Of a DNA stretch of 64,000 nucleotides, positions 30,517-37,347 are shown piece after piece. Location of the stretch: positions 1 through 64,000 of the forward strand of contig NZ_FQVK01000012.1 in the NCBI RefSeq assembly GCF_900129345.1. The letters run 5' to 3'. A program made the position numbers and the translations under genes. Under the pieces are notes generated by a model. It made no database searches and was not told the origin of the DNA. It saw only the letters and a list, made by a program, of their open reading frames with translations. Source of the DNA: Ruegeria intermedia. Its GTDB lineage: Bacteria; Pseudomonadota; Alphaproteobacteria; Rhodobacterales; Rhodobacteraceae. Position 1 is the stretch's first letter. Each line of letters begins with the position of its first letter.

Positions 30517-31700
30517 TGTTCGAAAATCTCAAGCCGCAGCCCGCCGACAAGATCCTGGCCCTGATGCAGATGTATCGCGACGACCCCCGCGAGCAGAAGA
30601 TCGACCTGGGCGTGGGCGTCTACAAGAATGCGCAGGGGGTGACGCCGGTGATGCGCGCGGTCAAGGCCGCCGAGCACCGCATCTGGGAAGAACAGCAGAC
30701 CAAGGCCTATACCGGGCTGGCCGGTGACCCGGCCTATGCCGATGCGATGATCACGCTGATTCTGGGCACCAGCGTGCCGCGCGCCAATATCGCCGCCGTG
30801 GCCACCCCGGGCGGCACCGGCGCCTGCCGCCAAGCGTTCGAGCTGATCCGCATGGCCAACCCCTCGGCCCGGGTGTTCGTGTCGAACCCGACCTGGCCGA
30901 ACCACATCTCGATCCTGAACTACCTGGGCATCGAAACTGTCGCCTACCGCTATTTCGACGAGGAAACCCGTGGCGTCGATTTCGACGGCATGATCGAGGA
31001 CCTCAAGACCGCCAAGGCCGGCGACGTCGTGCTGCTGCATGGCTGCTGCCACAACCCGACCGGCGCCAACCTGAACATGGTCCAGTGGCAAGAGGTGGTG
31101 AACCTGATCAACGACCGCGGCCTGGTGGCGATGATCGACATCGCCTATCAGGGCTTTGGCGACGGCCTGAACGAGGATGCGCAGGCGACCCGGCTTGTCG
31201 CGTCGTCGGTCAAGGAATGCCTGATCGCGGCGTCCTGTTCGAAGAATTTCGGTGTCTACCGCGAGCGCACCGGCCTGCTGATGGCCGTCAGCGCCGATGC
31301 GGGCCAGACCGCGCTGAACCAAGGCACGCTGGCTTTTCTGAACCGCCAGAACTACTCGTTCCCGCCCGATCACGGCGCGCGCGTGGTGACCACGATCCTG
31401 ATGGATGAGGGTTTGCGCGCCGATTGGATGGCCGAACTGGAAGAGGTTCGCCTGTCGATGCTGGGCCTGCGCCGCCAGCTGGCGGACGAGCTGCAGCGGC
31501 TGAGCGGATCGGACCGGTTCGGCTTCCTGGCCCAGCACCGCGGCATGTTCTCGCGCCTGGGCGCCGCGCCCGAATTGGTCGAGAAGCTGCGGGTCGAGCA
31601 CGGCATCTACATGGTCGGCGACAGCCGCATGAACATCGCCGGGTTGAACGAGGCCACCGTGCCGATCCTGGCCAAGGCCATCGTCGACGTCGGCGTCTGA
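30516..31700 (+). CDS. aromatic/aspartate-type aminotransferase
   Basis: A 394-residue PLP-dependent class I aminotransferase of the TyrB/AspC (Ialpha) type. It begins MFENLKPQPADKILALM, typical of that subgroup, with NPTWPNHISIL, GCCHNPTGANL, and SCSKNFGVYRERTG holding PLP-lysine Lys243. RMNIAGLN near the C-terminus holds the substrate carboxylate Arg. Coupling to sseA suggests it supplies 3-mercaptopyruvate by transaminating cysteine, but aromatic or aspartate transamination is equally possible. A strong terminator follows. Confidence 0.85.
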   Translation: MFENLKPQPADKILALMQMYRDDPREQKIDLGVGVYKNAQGVTPVMRAVKAAEHRIWEEQQTKAYTGLAGDPAYADAMITLILGTSVPRANIAAVATPGGTGACRQAFELIRMANPSARVFVSNPTWPNHISILNYLGIETVAYRYFDEETRGVDFDGMIEDLKTAKAGDVVLLHGCCHNPTGANLNMVQWQEVVNLINDRGLVAMIDIAYQGFGDGLNEDAQATRLVASSVKECLIAASCSKNFGVYRERTGLLMAVSADAGQTALNQGTLAFLNRQNYSFPPDHGARVVTTILMDEGLRADWMAELEEVRLSMLGLRRQLADELQRLSGSDRFGFLAQHRGMFSRLGAAPELVEKLRVEHGIYMVGDSRMNIAGLNEATVPILAKAIVDVGV

Positions 31701-31724
31701 GGCCGATCTTGAACGACCTTGCCT

Positions 31725-31802
31725 CCTGATCGCGAAATTTCGCGACCAGGGGTCCGCAACCCTGCGCCCGGCAATGTGCTGATGCACTGCCGGGCATTTT
31801 TT
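31725..31802 (+). terminator. Rho-independent terminator after the aminotransferase gene
   Basis: The main hairpin is GCCCGGCA (31766-31773) with TGCCGGGC (31788-31795), followed by ATTTTTT (31796-31802), a classical intrinsic terminator. A 13-bp imperfect inverted repeat (CCTGATCGCGAAA with TTTCGCGACCAGG, 31725-31750) lies just before it. Confidence 0.85.
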
Positions 31803-31885
31803 CGCAGAACGGGTGGCCGGGACTTGTCCGAAATCCGGCTTCCGCGAATGGCGTGTTCGGTTCGGCGTGCCCTGTCCGCGCCGTG

Positions 31886-32299
31886 TCACGGCTGCGGCGG
31901 CTGATAGACGCAATCGGACAACGTGCTGCGGTTGAGGTCGGCGATGAAGGCGGCCTCGGCCTCGGCCAGTCGCGCCTTGAGCCGGCAATGCGGGGTCAAC
32001 GTGCAGGCCGCGCCGCCGGGCATAAAGCACTCGACCAGCACCTGATCCGCCTCGAGATAGGCGACCACGTCGCCCAGCCGGATGGTCTCGGGGCGCCGAG
32101 CCAGCATCGCGCCGCCGCCGCCGCCGCGCCGGGTCTTCAGATATCCCGCTGCCGACAGTGCCGAGATCACCTTGGCCAGATGATTGCGTGATACGCGGAA
32201 CTCGTCCGCCAGTTCCGCCGTGGTGAAGGCCCGGTCGGGGCTGCCCGCCATCCGCATGAGAACGCGCAGCCCGAAATCGGTGAAGGAGGTGAGGCGCAA
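31886..32299 (-). CDS. Rrf2 family regulator, NsrR-like
   Basis: A 137-residue Rrf2 regulator. The winged helix contains LRVLMRMAGSPDRAFTTAEL and VSRNHLAKVISALSAAGYL, then RGGGGGAMLARRPETIRLGD. Three Cys (VECFMPGGAACTLTPHCRL, about residues 93-107) have the spacing of the NsrR [Fe-S] site that senses nitric oxide. The start codon is TTG at 32299, well supported by AAAGGAG seven bases upstream and by the family N-terminus MRLTSFTD. It is divergent from the hemerythrin/ubiTUV operon and probably regulates it. Confidence 0.85.
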   Translation of the reverse strand: MRLTSFTDFGLRVLMRMAGSPDRAFTTAELADEFRVSRNHLAKVISALSAAGYLKTRRGGGGGAMLARRPETIRLGDVVAYLEADQVLVECFMPGGAACTLTPHCRLKARLAEAEAAFIADLNRSTLSDCVYQPPQP

Positions 32300-32400
32300 A
32301 AGATGACTCCTTTAATCAGTATTTACAATGCGCATACACAAGTATATTCGGCAAATCAAATACCAATTCGTCCCGAGTCGGACCAGAGCGAGGACCTGAC

Positions 32401-32919
32401 ATGCGGCTGGCAAGCGTTTCGGCACAGGGTCGCGGGGAAACGGACCGCCTGCTGGAAGCGGTGGTGGCGCAGCTGAGCGCCGAAGGGTGCAAGGTGCTTG
32501 GCGCGCTGCGCGCCGCCGGTGCGCGGGACGCCGCCCCTTGCAACAGTGACCTGCGGCTTTTGCCGGACGGGCCGGTTCTGCGGATCACCCAGGATCTGGG
32601 CGCCGGGTCGACCGCCTGCCGGATGGACGCCGGGGCGCTGGAACGGGGTGTGGGCATCGTCACGGCCCGGCTTGCCGCCGAAGGCGCCGACCTGATCGTA
32701 TTGAACAAATTCGGCCTGAGCGAAGCCGAAGGGCGCGGGTTCCGGTCGCTGATCTCGGATGCGGTGGTCCGGGGTGTGCCGGTGCTGACCGGGCTGACCG
32801 AAGCCCATCGGCGGGCCTTCGAGCAGTTCGCGGACGGGATGCACAGCCCGCTGCCGCCGGACGAAACCGCCATCCTGCGGTGGTGCCGAACGGCCGCCGC
32901 CATGCCCCGCGAGGTGTGA
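32401..32919 (+). CDS. DUF2478 domain protein
   Basis: A 172-residue protein matching the DUF2478 family of unknown function. It has the features LIVLNKFGLSEAEGRGFRSL and VPVLTGLTEAHRRAFEQFAD, suggestive of a nucleotide-binding-like fold, but no clear Walker A. Members occur beside molybdenum or denitrification genes. It is first in an operon with a hemerythrin protein and ubiTUV, and abuts the next start with no gap. Function unknown. Confidence 0.7.
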   Translation: MRLASVSAQGRGETDRLLEAVVAQLSAEGCKVLGALRAAGARDAAPCNSDLRLLPDGPVLRITQDLGAGSTACRMDAGALERGVGIVTARLAAEGADLIVLNKFGLSEAEGRGFRSLISDAVVRGVPVLTGLTEAHRRAFEQFADGMHSPLPPDETAILRWCRTAAAMPREV

Positions 32920-33423
32920 ATGCTGGTTCCTGATGCCCAAACGCCGACTCTGGTCCTGATGAGCCATATCCGAGATCGCGTGCTGCATGCGCATCGACGG
33001 CAATTGCCGCGGCTGGTCAGCCTGGCCCAAAAGGTTGAAGCCCGCCATGCCGACGACATCGCCGCACCGCATGGTCTGACGGCGGCCTTGGAGGCCATCT
33101 CGCAGGCGCTTGACGCCCATATTGACCACGAGGAAGCCGTCGTCTTCCCCGCGCTGAGCCGGGGGCAGGCGGGCCGCGTGCAGGAGGCGCTGGCCGGTCT
33201 GCGCGACGACCATGCGGAACACGAAGCCGCATTGAACCGGATCGCCGCCATGACTCACGGGTTCCGCCTGCCGCGCAGCGCCTGCCCGTCGTGGCGGCGG
33301 CTCTATGCCGGGCTGGGCCGGTTGGCCGAGGATCTGGACGAGCACCGATATCTTGAAAATGAGCTGCTGTTTCCACGGTTCGAAACCCCGGTCCGGCCCG
33401 GACCGGCAGACCCCACCCGATGA
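32920..33423 (+). CDS. hemerythrin HHE domain protein (RIC/YtfE-like)
   Basis: A 167-residue protein with a diiron hemerythrin four-helix bundle. Ligands lie in VLHAHRRQLPRLV, ALDAHIDHEEAVVFPAL, LRDDHAEHEAALNRI and LDEHRYLENELLFPRF. It resembles the C-terminal domain of the Fe-S repair protein RIC (YtfE/ScdA) without the N-terminal ScdA domain, as in DnrN-type nitric-oxide-induced proteins. With the NsrR-like gene nearby, a role in NO stress or Fe-S protection is likely. It starts directly after the DUF2478 stop. Confidence 0.82.
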   Translation: MLVPDAQTPTLVLMSHIRDRVLHAHRRQLPRLVSLAQKVEARHADDIAAPHGLTAALEAISQALDAHIDHEEAVVFPALSRGQAGRVQEALAGLRDDHAEHEAALNRIAAMTHGFRLPRSACPSWRRLYAGLGRLAEDLDEHRYLENELLFPRFETPVRPGPADPTR

Positions 33424-33433
33424 AGGCCCCGCC

Positions 33434-33940
33434 ATGACCGCACATCCAGATACCGTTCCCCGCACCGCCGTCCCGGCCAGACCCGTCCTTGCCCGTCTGT
33501 CCTGCCTGATCGTGCAGCCCGTGCTGACCCGCGTGGTCCGGCGCATCGCGGCGCAGCACCCGACGCTGTTCGAGCGTTTGGGGCCGCATCAGGGCACCGA
33601 TTTCGTGATCGACCCGGTGGATCTGCCCTTTGCCCTGCACCTGCGCCCGGATCCGCGGGCGCTGGTGTTCCGTGCCGTGCCCCGCGATGCGGTGCCGCCC
33701 GCCGGCGCCACCATCCGCGGTACGTTCCTGTTGTTGCTTGAACTCATCGATTCCGAGGAAGACGGCGATGCCGCGTTCTTCGCGCGCGATCTCGAGGTCA
33801 CGGGCGATACCGAGGCGGTGGTGCGTCTGCGCAATGCGCTGGACGATGTCGATGGCTCGATCGCCGAGGATGCCGCCGCGATGTTCGGCCCTCCGGGCCG
33901 CGCCATCCTGGCCCGGCTGCGCCGCGCCTATCAAACCTGA
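33434..33940 (+). CDS. ubiT: SCP2 domain protein UbiT
   Basis: A 168-residue lipid-binding SCP2-domain protein. The hydrophobic core includes LVFRAVPRDAVPPAGATIRG, then TFLLLLELIDSEEDGDAAFF and FARDLEVTGDTEAVVRLRNA, as in E. coli UbiT (YhbT). It accompanies UbiU and UbiV in oxygen-independent ubiquinone synthesis, probably presenting the lipid intermediate. The start follows the hemerythrin stop by 10 bases. The same order ubiT-ubiU-ubiV occurs in other alphaproteobacteria. Confidence 0.88.
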   Translation: MTAHPDTVPRTAVPARPVLARLSCLIVQPVLTRVVRRIAAQHPTLFERLGPHQGTDFVIDPVDLPFALHLRPDPRALVFRAVPRDAVPPAGATIRGTFLLLLELIDSEEDGDAAFFARDLEVTGDTEAVVRLRNALDDVDGSIAEDAAAMFGPPGRAILARLRRAYQT

Positions 33941-33958
33941 AGAAAGGACCTCCCGCCC

Positions 33959-34957
33959 ATGAGCCTTGCCGAACTGATCTGCCCAGCCGGCACGCCCGCC
34001 GCCCTGCGCACCGCCGTCGATGCCGGCGCCGACGCGGTCTATTGCGGATTTCAGGATGCGACCAACGCCCGCAATTTCCCCGGGTTGAACTTCACCCCCG
34101 ACGAGATGGCCGCCGCCGTGGCCTATGCGCATGACAAGGGCACCAAGGTGCTGCTGGCGCTGAACACCTATCCGCCCGCGGGCAAGGTCGATCTGTGGCG
34201 GCAGGCCGCCGATGCGGGCGCGCGGATCGGCGTCGATGCCTTCATCGTGGCCGACATGGGCGTGGCCGACTATATCGCGCGCACCCATCCGGATATCCGC
34301 CTGCACCTGTCGGTCCAGGCCGCTGCCTCGAGCCCCGAGGCGATCCGGTACTACTGCGACAATTTCGGCGTCAAGCGCGTGGTGCTGCCGCGCATCCTGA
34401 CCATCCCCGAAATCCGCGAGATCCGCCGGGAAATCCCCTGCGAGATCGAAACCTTCATCTTCGGGAACCACGGGCTGATGGTCGAAGGCCGCTGCAGCCT
34501 GACCAACTATCTGACCGGACAGTCCACCAACATGGACGGGGTGTGTTCTCCGGCTTCGGACGTGGAATATGCCCGCCATGCCGACGGGTCGATGTCGTCC
34601 CGGCTGGCCGGGTTCACCATCGATTGTTTCGGCGCCGACGAAAAGGCGGGCTATCCCACGATCTGCAAGGGGCGCTATCGGGCGCCGCACCGGCCCGACG
34701 GGTATTACGCCTTCGAAGAGCCGATCAGCCTGAACCTGTCGCGCCTGCTGCCCGAACTGATCGATGCCGGGGTTCACGCCTTCAAGATCGAGGGGCGTCA
34801 GCGATCCAAGAGCTATGTGCGGGGCGTGGTCTCGGCCTTCCGGCAGGCTGTCGATGACATTCGGGCGGGCCGGCAGGCCAACATCGCCGATCTGGTCGCC
34901 CTGACCGAGGGTCAGAAACAGACCCAGGGCGCGTTCGAAACCAAGAAATGGCGGTAA
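33959..34957 (+). CDS. ubiU: U32 family protein UbiU (O2-independent ubiquinone hydroxylation)
   Basis: A 332-residue U32 (peptidase-like) protein with the four-Cys [4Fe-4S] set in VEGRCSLTNY, NMDGVCSPASD, TIDCFGADEK and PTICKGRY. The start LAELICPAGTPAALRTAVDA and NARNFPGLNFT are U32 signatures. UbiU forms a complex with UbiV that hydroxylates ubiquinone precursors without O2. Gene spacing to ubiT is 18 bases, and ubiV follows after 5 bases. Confidence 0.9.
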   Translation: MSLAELICPAGTPAALRTAVDAGADAVYCGFQDATNARNFPGLNFTPDEMAAAVAYAHDKGTKVLLALNTYPPAGKVDLWRQAADAGARIGVDAFIVADMGVADYIARTHPDIRLHLSVQAAASSPEAIRYYCDNFGVKRVVLPRILTIPEIREIRREIPCEIETFIFGNHGLMVEGRCSLTNYLTGQSTNMDGVCSPASDVEYARHADGSMSSRLAGFTIDCFGADEKAGYPTICKGRYRAPHRPDGYYAFEEPISLNLSRLLPELIDAGVHAFKIEGRQRSKSYVRGVVSAFRQAVDDIRAGRQANIADLVALTEGQKQTQGAFETKKWR

Positions 34958-34962
34958 GAGAG

Positions 34963-35871
34963 ATGACGAAACTGACTTTGGGACCCATCGCCTATCACTG
35001 GCCGGCCGAGGACCGGCGGGATTTCTACGCCCGCATCGCCGACGAGGCACCGGTGGATGAGGTCTATCTTGGCGAGGTGATCTGCTCGAAACGCGCGCCC
35101 TTCCACGAGCCCGACCTGCCGGCCACGATCGAGCGGCTGCAGCGCGGCGGCAAGACGGTGATCGTGTCGTCGCTGGCCGAGGTTATGCTGAAACGCGAAC
35201 GCAAGGCCACCGCCGATCTTGCTGCGCTGGACGCGCCCGAGATCGAGATCAACAACGCCGCCGGCCTGTACGCGCGCGGGCGGCGCCCGCACCGGGTCGG
35301 GCCGTTTCTGAACGCCTACAACGAGGCCACGATCGCCTGGATGGCATCGCAGGGTGCGACGCATGTCTGCCTGCCCACCGAACTGCCCGGCGCGGCGATC
35401 GCCACGGCGGCTGCAACGGCGCGCGAACTGGGGCTGGGGGTCGAGGTCCAGGTGTTTGGTCGGGCCTCGCTTGCGGTGTCGGCGCGCTGCTACCATGCGC
35501 GTGCGCATGGCCGCACCAAGGACAACTGTCAGTTCGTCTGCGAAGAAGATGCCGACGGCATGCCGCTGCGCACGACCGACGACCGTCCGATCCTGCGCGT
35601 GAACGGCATCCAGACCCAATCCGAAAGCTATGTCGACCTTTTGCCTGAAACCCGGCGTCTGATCGCCGACGGGGTTACCCATCTGCGGCTGATGCCGCAG
35701 GCGGTCGACATGGTGGCGGTGGCCGGCACGGTCCGGGACCTGCTGGACGACCGGCTCGATCCGGCCGGGGCCGAGGCCGCGCTGCGCCGGATCTGCGACG
35801 CGGTTCCGTTCTCGAACGGGTTCTACCACGGTCAGGCCGGGTATCGGCGCATTGCCGCCGCGGCGGGCTGA
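34963..35871 (+). CDS. ubiV: U32 family protein UbiV (O2-independent ubiquinone hydroxylation)
   Basis: A 302-residue U32 protein partnering UbiU. Cys ligands are in LGEVICSKRAPF, VSARCYHARAHGRTKDNC and QFVCEEDADG. ATG 34963 is chosen over the in-frame ATG at 34948, which lies inside ubiU, because TAAGAGAG sits before it. It closes the DUF2478-hemerythrin-ubiTUV operon. Confidence 0.9.
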   Translation: MTKLTLGPIAYHWPAEDRRDFYARIADEAPVDEVYLGEVICSKRAPFHEPDLPATIERLQRGGKTVIVSSLAEVMLKRERKATADLAALDAPEIEINNAAGLYARGRRPHRVGPFLNAYNEATIAWMASQGATHVCLPTELPGAAIATAAATARELGLGVEVQVFGRASLAVSARCYHARAHGRTKDNCQFVCEEDADGMPLRTTDDRPILRVNGIQTQSESYVDLLPETRRLIADGVTHLRLMPQAVDMVAVAGTVRDLLDDRLDPAGAEAALRRICDAVPFSNGFYHGQAGYRRIAAAAG

Positions 35872-35961
35872 TCCGCGCGGCGCGCCATGCGTGGCGCGGG
35901 GCCGCGTCAGCCGCGCTTTCGGCGCGCATAGCGACCACTCGGAGGCTGTCCGGGAAAGGAT

Positions 35962-35989
35962 GCAGCCGCGACGGGGACGTCGCGGCTGC
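35962..35989. terminator. hairpin between ubiV and amtB (convergent)
   Basis: GCAGCCGCGACG pairs perfectly with CGTCGCGGCTGC around GGGA (12-bp stem). It lies between two convergent stops (35871 and 36019). No T-run on the plus strand; it may work with other factors. Confidence 0.5.
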
Positions 35990-36018
35990 GATCATGCTTG
36001 CGGCTGGGCAAACGGGGC

Positions 36019-37347
<1,329 letters not shown>

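Follow-up and report, generated by a model that had tools for sequence, protein, structure and literature searches.

A 64,000-nucleotide stretch of the Ruegeria intermedia genome (assembly GCF_900129345.1, contig NZ_FQVK01000012.1, positions 1 to 64,000 of the forward strand; here called the window) carries an Rrf2 family regulator gene that is divergent from five genes for a DUF2478 protein, a hemerythrin, and the UbiT, UbiU, and UbiV proteins of O2-independent ubiquinone synthesis (Table 1). An earlier annotation made from the letters alone (the original prediction) had linked the regulator, as a nitric oxide (NO) or Fe-S sensor, to this operon, and all six open reading frames were found where it had placed them. 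The five plus-strand genes are tightly packed: the intergenic gaps measure 0, 10, and 18 bp, and one pair overlaps by 10 bp. Each of the three Ubi proteins passes its NCBIfam equivalog cut-off (UbiT, 61.9 bits against 46.9; UbiU, 460.3 against 440; UbiV, 349.8 against 275). The regulator gene (nsrR), DUF2478, and ubiTUV were found together in 22 of 29 genome loci, a set biased to close kin because its retrieval used peptide patterns taken from the DUF2478 of the window itself. This recurrence implies that the gene grouping is more than chance. No sigma-70 site was found by consensus in a promoter scan of positions 31600 to 36100.

Table 1. Features of the nsrR-linked ubiTUV locus (window positions)
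Feature	Position	Strand	Basis or remark
NsrR-like Rrf2 regulator, 137 residues; C91, C99, C105, D8	31886..32299	-	divergent from the five-gene operon
Predicted NsrR-type operator core GTATTTACAATGC (GYAT-N5-ATRC)	32319..32331	+	motif match
Second, mirrored operator-like site GCAAATCAAATAC, one mismatch to the core	32351..32363	+	second conserved block in the 21-region alignment
DUF2478 (PF10649), predicted THEP1-fold protein with substituted Walker A and B motifs	32401..32919	+	profile, model
RIC-like hemerythrin domain protein without ScdA_N; YtfE His84 replaced by Leu22	32920..33423	+	profile, alignment
ubiT (SCP2 accessory factor)	33434..33940	+	NF047962 above cut-off
ubiU (U32 family)	33959..34957	+	NF047963 above cut-off
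ubiV (U32 family; alternative ATG at 34963)	34948..35871	+	NF047965 above cut-off
Inserted cassette, between the aspartate aminotransferase gene and amtB	31701..36018	not assigned	empty site in congener G043

The regulator matched the Rrf2 Pfam family (E 4e-31), and its best NCBIfam equivalog was NsrR with 112.6 bits, followed by RirA (80.1) and IscR (34.2). The best match in the Protein Data Bank (PDB) was S. coelicolor NsrR (5n07; 6e-19), aligned over the full length with the three cluster cysteines matched. The original prediction had described three cysteines in NsrR spacing. The spacing is C91-X7-C99-X5-C105, with the first loop 2 residues longer than in S. coelicolor NsrR, but all three cysteines align. 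Residue 8 is an aspartate (N-terminus MRLTSFTD). Asp8 is the cross-subunit cluster ligand of NsrR (PMC5411485), and RirA has a highly conserved Asn at residue 8 (PMC10510648). Based on the 5n07 alignment, with its three cysteines and Asp8, we termed the protein NsrR-like, and we infer by analogy that it would be a [4Fe-4S] protein.

Upstream of nsrR, two blocks are conserved across 21 regions that we picked from 39 rows, with near-copies thinned: TTTGGTATTTACAATGCGCATT and a second one in mirrored form. The core GYAT-N5-ATRC corresponds to the inner positions of the NsrR motif published by Rodionov et al. (PMC1274295). It was present in 18 of these 21 regions, whereas 200 mononucleotide shuffles gave 0.14 on average and 2 at most. 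With copies and two remote Rrf2 genes included, 33 of the 39 rows had the core; it was missing from loci L075, L078, L072, L081 (run of N), L087, and L149, the last having as its “nsrR” neighbor a 37% Rrf2 that we excluded from nsrR counts. At ≤3 mismatches, the extended consensus matched one place genome-wide, the window's own site, itself with 3 mismatches, which suggests a small regulon. The 21 regions contained neither FNR boxes (0/21) nor NnrR boxes (0/21), and a loose scan of the host denitrification region (14-base core, ≤3 mismatches) found no site. Of 16 thinned nsrR-linked ubiTUV loci, 15 have nsrR upstream of the operon and in divergent orientation. The remaining one, L145, has nsrR behind nnrS, downstream of the operon, and its DUF2478-ubiTUV upstream region keeps its own core, GTATTTGAAATAC.

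The regulator could instead sense iron or Fe-S status as a RirA- or IscR-like protein, with the operon answering general Fe-S damage. RirA is indeed the next-best named equivalog, but the NsrR model scores 32 bits higher and residue 8 is Asp and not the Asn of RirA. Likewise, a RirA-type TGA-N9-TCA box occurs in 3 of the 21 loci, the window intergenic region among them, while the NsrR core occurs in 18. UbiU and UbiV are themselves Fe-S proteins (PMC6747719), as would suit a response to Fe-S damage. However, nnrS (13/20) and hemerythrin (15/20) are frequent neighbors in the clade of cassette DUF2478 genes described below, and the lack of a second extended site in the genome at ≤3 mismatches is unlike a global iron regulator. 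We consider iron or Fe-S sensing unlikely.

Our sample of 120 Rhodobacteraceae genomes held 26 with UbiU over the cut-off, two of which (G028 and G069) were seen with 1.5 kb per side only. Their ubiTUV loci are of three types: divergent from ubiD-ubiX (type A), stand-alone with neither partner (type B), or nsrR-linked (type C). Type C was found in 7 of the 26 genomes (the host, G000, and G031, G044, G047, G065, G070, and G119). An FNR-like box was defined as a site within 450 bp upstream of ubiT that matches TTGAY-N4-RTCAA at 9 or more of its 10 positions. By this definition, 11 of 12 type A loci of the family (11 of 13 with L240, from another family) and 9 of 10 type B loci have the box. It was absent from type C (0/33), both upstream of ubiT and in the nsrR upstream region; these 33 loci hold four second copies (L160, L156, L161, and L150), and most others of L070 to L084 are near-copies. 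In the thinned set, the counts were 10/11 for type A, 8/8 for type B, and 0/16 for type C. The two type A and B loci without the box are L182 (type A), which matches 8 of 10 positions, and L058 (type B), with nnrS directly upstream.

Fnr controls ubiTUV in E. coli (PMC10470549), and a survey across Pseudomonadota reported FNR sites at 1362 of 1566 ubiTUV sets, with mostly vertical inheritance and one transfer (PMC11707229). Nearly all other Rhodobacteraceae loci that we examined have the same genes and fit this pattern, whereas the nsrR-linked loci depart from both the FNR rule and the largely vertical inheritance. Compared to the E. coli system (PMC6747719, PMC10470549), the window has UbiT, UbiU, and UbiV proteins that pass the family cut-offs, with ubiU and ubiV adjacent and ubiT beside them. 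Unlike E. coli, the nsrR-linked lineage has no FNR-like box, has an NsrR-like gene and an NsrR-type core, and carries hemerythrin and DUF2478 genes in the operon. The NsrR regulons of beta- and gammaproteobacteria (PMC1274295) share with it the Rrf2 regulator, the GYAT-N5-ATRC core, and the RIC-like hemerythrin and nnrS neighbors, but the outer motif arms differ here (TGG..CCA). That survey found NsrR in no alphaproteobacterium except R. capsulatus E1F1, and the part of it used here does not name ubiquinone genes. A statement tying NsrR to ubiTUV was not found in the literature searched, with subscription papers and preprints outside the search. Taken together, the predicted link between the regulator and ubiTUV holds and is stronger than first claimed, with a conserved operator-like site and the usual FNR-like box missing.

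A different arrangement would have the regulator control its near neighbors only, with DUF2478 and the hemerythrin as passengers and ubiTUV expressed from an internal promoter under another anaerobic regulator. Such independence would be in keeping with the variable cassette order and with nsrR-linked ubiTUV loci that lack a cassette-type DUF2478 (L186, L192, and L193). However, in one of these same loci, L193, nsrR with its conserved upstream region is directly divergent from ubiT, and in L145 the DUF2478-ubiTUV operon retains a core of its own with nsrR downstream. The tight packing of the five genes and the lack of an FNR-like box near either ubiT or nsrR in 33 loci also argue against an internal promoter of this kind, which we regard as improbable.

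In a genome of the same genus, G043, the aspartate aminotransferase gene and amtB are ~78 bp apart (tblastn match ends) with gene order otherwise kept, and a type A ubiTUV with an FNR-like box is carried elsewhere. Relative to this empty site, the window cassette is an insertion. Mean UbiU identity was 91.4% in type C (7 genera) versus 77.6% in type A (11 genomes) and 78.3% in type B (8 genomes), and UbiV and UbiT follow the same trend of higher identity in type C. A stretch of 9 to 16 kb with the order nsrR-hemerythrin-DUF2478-5-formyltetrahydrofolate cyclo-ligase-ubiTUV-nnrS-nnrU has 90 to 97% DNA identity among 13 loci (L070, L071, L073 to L081, L083, and L084); the fetched loci stop at about 16.5 kb. 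The hosts are Actibacterium, Donghicola, Marivita, Aestuariivita, Cognatishimia, Phaeobacter, Celeribacter, Roseovarius, Marimonas, Roseibacterium, Histidinibacterium, Roseibaca, and one metagenome-assembled genome (MAG). Such identity across different Rhodobacterales points to recent movement of the stretch, which is also present on a Thioclava plasmid (L191).

In the window, the cassette has a shorter form and is surrounded by housekeeping genes. The window contains no tRNA and nothing that matches Rfam above threshold, so no tRNA integration site was seen, and comparison of the two insertion ends gave no shared word >8 bp. The G+C content of the cassette (0.65 to 0.70 in a profile of 0.58 to 0.70) is not sharply distinct, with the two top values (0.694 and 0.697) inside it. 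In the UbiU tree, whose bootstrap is not settled, types B and C joined against A (99/97) and type B formed one clade (98/99).

The host genome has cytochrome cd1 matches on contig C7. Near them are a COX1-type (norB-like) and cytochrome c (norC-like) pair, a VWA protein, a Crp/Fnr regulator, an nnrS-like gene, NosZ propeller repeats, and NosD, all named by our reading of Pfam matches and gene order. NarG and NirK gave no match over the cut-off in the host genome. With the cd1, norB- and norC-like, and NosZ and NosD genes, the host can probably make and remove NO.

We think it likely that these denitrifying marine bacteria gained the locus by horizontal transfer, as a form of the O2-independent ubiquinone pathway that responds to NO and in which an NsrR-like repressor stands in place of FNR control. 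NO control of the operon is what we infer from these data. The repressor would bind operators in the divergent promoter region and keep both itself and the DUF2478-hemerythrin-ubiTUV operon off. By analogy with NsrR biochemistry elsewhere, NO from the host's own NirS-type denitrification would destroy the cluster and release the operon. Judging from the sequence pattern, NsrR control would thereby replace the FNR control predicted for other Rhodobacteraceae ubiTUV loci. The appearance of NO would then switch on ubiquinone synthesis by the Fe-S proteins UbiU and UbiV along with an NO- or iron-handling hemerythrin. In Sphingopyxis granuli, ubiU is uninduced in a narG mutant and also in an fnr mutant (PMC7713065); the narG dependence would agree with NO or nitrate acting as a signal in another alphaproteobacterium.

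Several points weigh against this model, the need for fnr in Sphingopyxis among them. The regulator fails the NsrR equivalog cut-off (NF008240, 182 bits), which is why we label it NsrR-like and not NsrR. The full published NsrR motif with outer arms, gATGyAT-N5-ATrCATc, was found in 0 of the 21 regions, and the TGA-N9-TCA box lies in the window region itself. The bare core is not rare (the 64-kb window has 4 matches against 3.2 expected), so its value as evidence comes from conservation and position. The FNR scan is a plain consensus count over related, non-independent loci. The UbiU proteins of nsrR-linked loci were not recovered as one clade in the UbiU tree. Finally, NsrR (70%) and DUF2478 (65%) are far more varied between cassettes than UbiU (91%), so the cassette parts did not all spread as one unit. 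If the model is true, the O2-independent ubiquinone pathway can be made to answer to NO rather than to O2, and one family offers a natural pair of otherwise alike ubiTUV loci differing in control.

DUF2478 had been suggested as a possible new part of this system, but its genomic company does not support it as a general part of the ubiTUV system. Neighbors of the 82 fetched DUF2478 places in the family sample (fragment matches G047:C42, G118:C219, and G012:C54 left out) fall in overlapping classes: moeA or mobA at 28, nar at 16, nnrU at 15, nsrR at 8 (a ninth, remote Rrf2 is left out of this count), and ubiTUV at 6. An ABC-ATPase only was found at 9 places and none of the marker genes at 21. 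In these neighbor counts, L160 and L156 stand without DUF2478 because the gene caller overlooked both DUF2478 and the hemerythrin at the window locus; a profile search corrected this. Across Pseudomonadota, 25 of 299 genomes have DUF2478; NarG over the cut-off is in 10 of the 25 (3.2 expected, P 3e-4), and UbiU is in 7 (7.9 expected), which is no enrichment. Within the family sample, DUF2478 was present in 22 of 26 UbiU genomes versus 13.9 expected (P 2e-4), a co-occurrence that could be explained by shared anaerobic life. At the level of whole genomes, the association with ubiTUV is seen within the family and not across the phylum. A ubi-specific DUF2478 is rejected by the neighborhood counts and the phylum-level co-occurrence.

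A tree of 118 thinned DUF2478 domains, labeled by neighbors within 6 kb and with a bootstrap that is not settled, placed the 20 cassette DUF2478s in one clade (100/99). All 20 have nsrR nearby and 17 have ubiTUV (L064, L069, and L157 do not). The constant neighbor of this clade is nsrR, not ubiTUV, and the nsrR-linked DUF2478 clade is a stable partner in the cassette. In the literature searched, with subscription papers and preprints outside the search, the term “DUF2478” was found in one paper, as a table label.

The window DUF2478 scores 153.1 bits with PF10649 (gathering cut-off, 22.3). Its AlphaFold model has a mean predicted local distance difference test score (pLDDT) of 88, weaker at residues 41 to 50, which include Cys47. 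The model matched the fold of human NTPCR (Z 13.7) and Aquifex THEP1 (Z 13.5) over 161 and 155 residues, with the next match at Z 9.1. Foldseek with the model gave no match at E ≤0.001, and a DUF2478 profile sequence search of PDB at E ≤1 gave a single weak match (E 0.24). A nar-type DUF2478 passes both PF10649 (163.9 bits) and PF03266 (34.5 bits), and two further DUF2478 proteins also pass both, narrowly over the PF03266 cut-off of 23.9 (25.7 and 24.4 bits); the window protein is below it with 11.6. DUF2478 thus shares fold and partial sequence similarity with the THEP1/NTPCR nucleoside triphosphatases (NTPases; PF03266, PDB 1ye8 and 2i3b).

Unlike those enzymes, DUF2478 has no Walker A lysine, with Lys at that position in 3 of 118 domains. 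We take the THEP1 motifs to be Walker A GxxGxGKT and Walker B DE, and residues were matched to DUF2478 by eye from order and fold. The Walker B position has NK in place of DE, within an NKFG motif (N102, 110/118; K103, 108/118; F, 118/118; G, 117/118). Glu108 (118/118), Cys73 (117/118), and Cys47 (107/118) are also conserved. By model and motif, DUF2478 is a predicted THEP1/NTPCR-fold homologue in which other residues stand in place of the Walker A lysine and the Walker B acids. It is probably a pseudo-NTPase that has lost ATP hydrolysis, and it may still bind a ligand. The Walker motif counts did not support DUF2478 as an active NTPase.

These data also bear on whether DUF2478 serves in the maturation of molybdenum enzymes, with a cassette copy that was recruited through duplication and whose role is no longer tied to ubiquinone or NO. 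The moeA/mobA and nar neighbors and the excess of NarG fit such a factor, as do two Thioclava plasmid nar operons that end in DUF2478 and adjoin an nsrR-ubiTUV set without its own. The cassette clade has lost the lysine after NKFG, which is Lys in 82 of 118 domains overall and L, V, or I in 20 of 20 cassette members. However, in an alignment of 30 that holds the cassette members of the 29-locus set, NKFG, Glu108, and Cys73 are invariant and Cys47 is nearly so. Together with nsrR near 20 of 20 clade members, this implies that the cassette copy is kept next to an NO-type regulator. We hold a molybdenum factor detached from NO to be a real possibility, short of an even chance.

Most likely, though weakly so, DUF2478 would be an accessory of metal-cofactor enzymes in N-oxide respiration, with the cassette clade serving the same NO-triggered response as the rest of the operon. 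Somewhat doubtful is a fuller scheme that joins a swap from FNR to NsrR derepression in a mobile ubiTUV lineage, with ubiquinone synthesis as an NO response, to DUF2478 as a THEP1-derived pseudo-NTPase. There, DUF2478, with the Walker Lys lost and with its conserved Cys pair and NKFG, would act as a factor for cofactor protection or insertion, one clade being specialized for NO-damaged Fe-S enzymes such as UbiU and UbiV. The data at hand link DUF2478 to the biology of molybdenum, nitrate, and NO, and its fold and specific residues offer targets for mutation.

The hemerythrin of the window has a Pfam match of E 2.5e-14. The YtfE/RIC models were best but below their cut-offs, which include the N-terminal part: TIGR03652 gave 118 of 204.7 bits and NF008221 gave 133.2 of 254 bits, with only profile positions from 66 and 71 on matched. 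The diiron ligands of YtfE are H84, H129, E133, H160, H204, and E208 (PMC9268430). Five of the six are kept in the window protein, and the H84 position is Leu22. A Leu at this position is also found in L062, L063, and L154, while the other cassette and upstream-type copies aligned keep His. The predicted term “RIC-like” is therefore fair, with the qualification that the hemerythrin domain alone is matched (no ScdA_N) and that one YtfE ligand is replaced. In the Sinisalibacter cassette (L062:7524-9056), both hemerythrin copies look decayed, with metal ligands lost, compared to the close relative L063.

The host has a second DUF2478 (G000:C3:134189-134665; L001, L091), after nnrU behind an ABC transporter set, and this arrangement recurs in several genera. 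Outside the cassette clade, L239:6693-9600 (G350) has a DUF2478 of another clade directly after a ubiXD-linked ubiTUV with an FNR-like box, a second, independent neighborhood. In a Rhizobiales MAG (L087:7539-8474), an NsrR-like gene (49% identity) is directly before an other-clade DUF2478, without ubiTUV, and L242 has a weak Rrf2 match near a DUF2478 that is likewise outside the cassette clade. The 5-formyltetrahydrofolate cyclo-ligase family gene (PF01812) occurs within or next to nsrR-ubiTUV cassettes (with 7 of the 20 members of the clade; L078:8567-9217 and equivalents, L186, L145, and L066). Lastly, a terminator-like stretch unlisted by the promoter scan was seen by eye at window positions 31766 to 31802, GCCCGGCA...TGCCGGGCATTTTTT, 3' of the aspartate aminotransferase gene.

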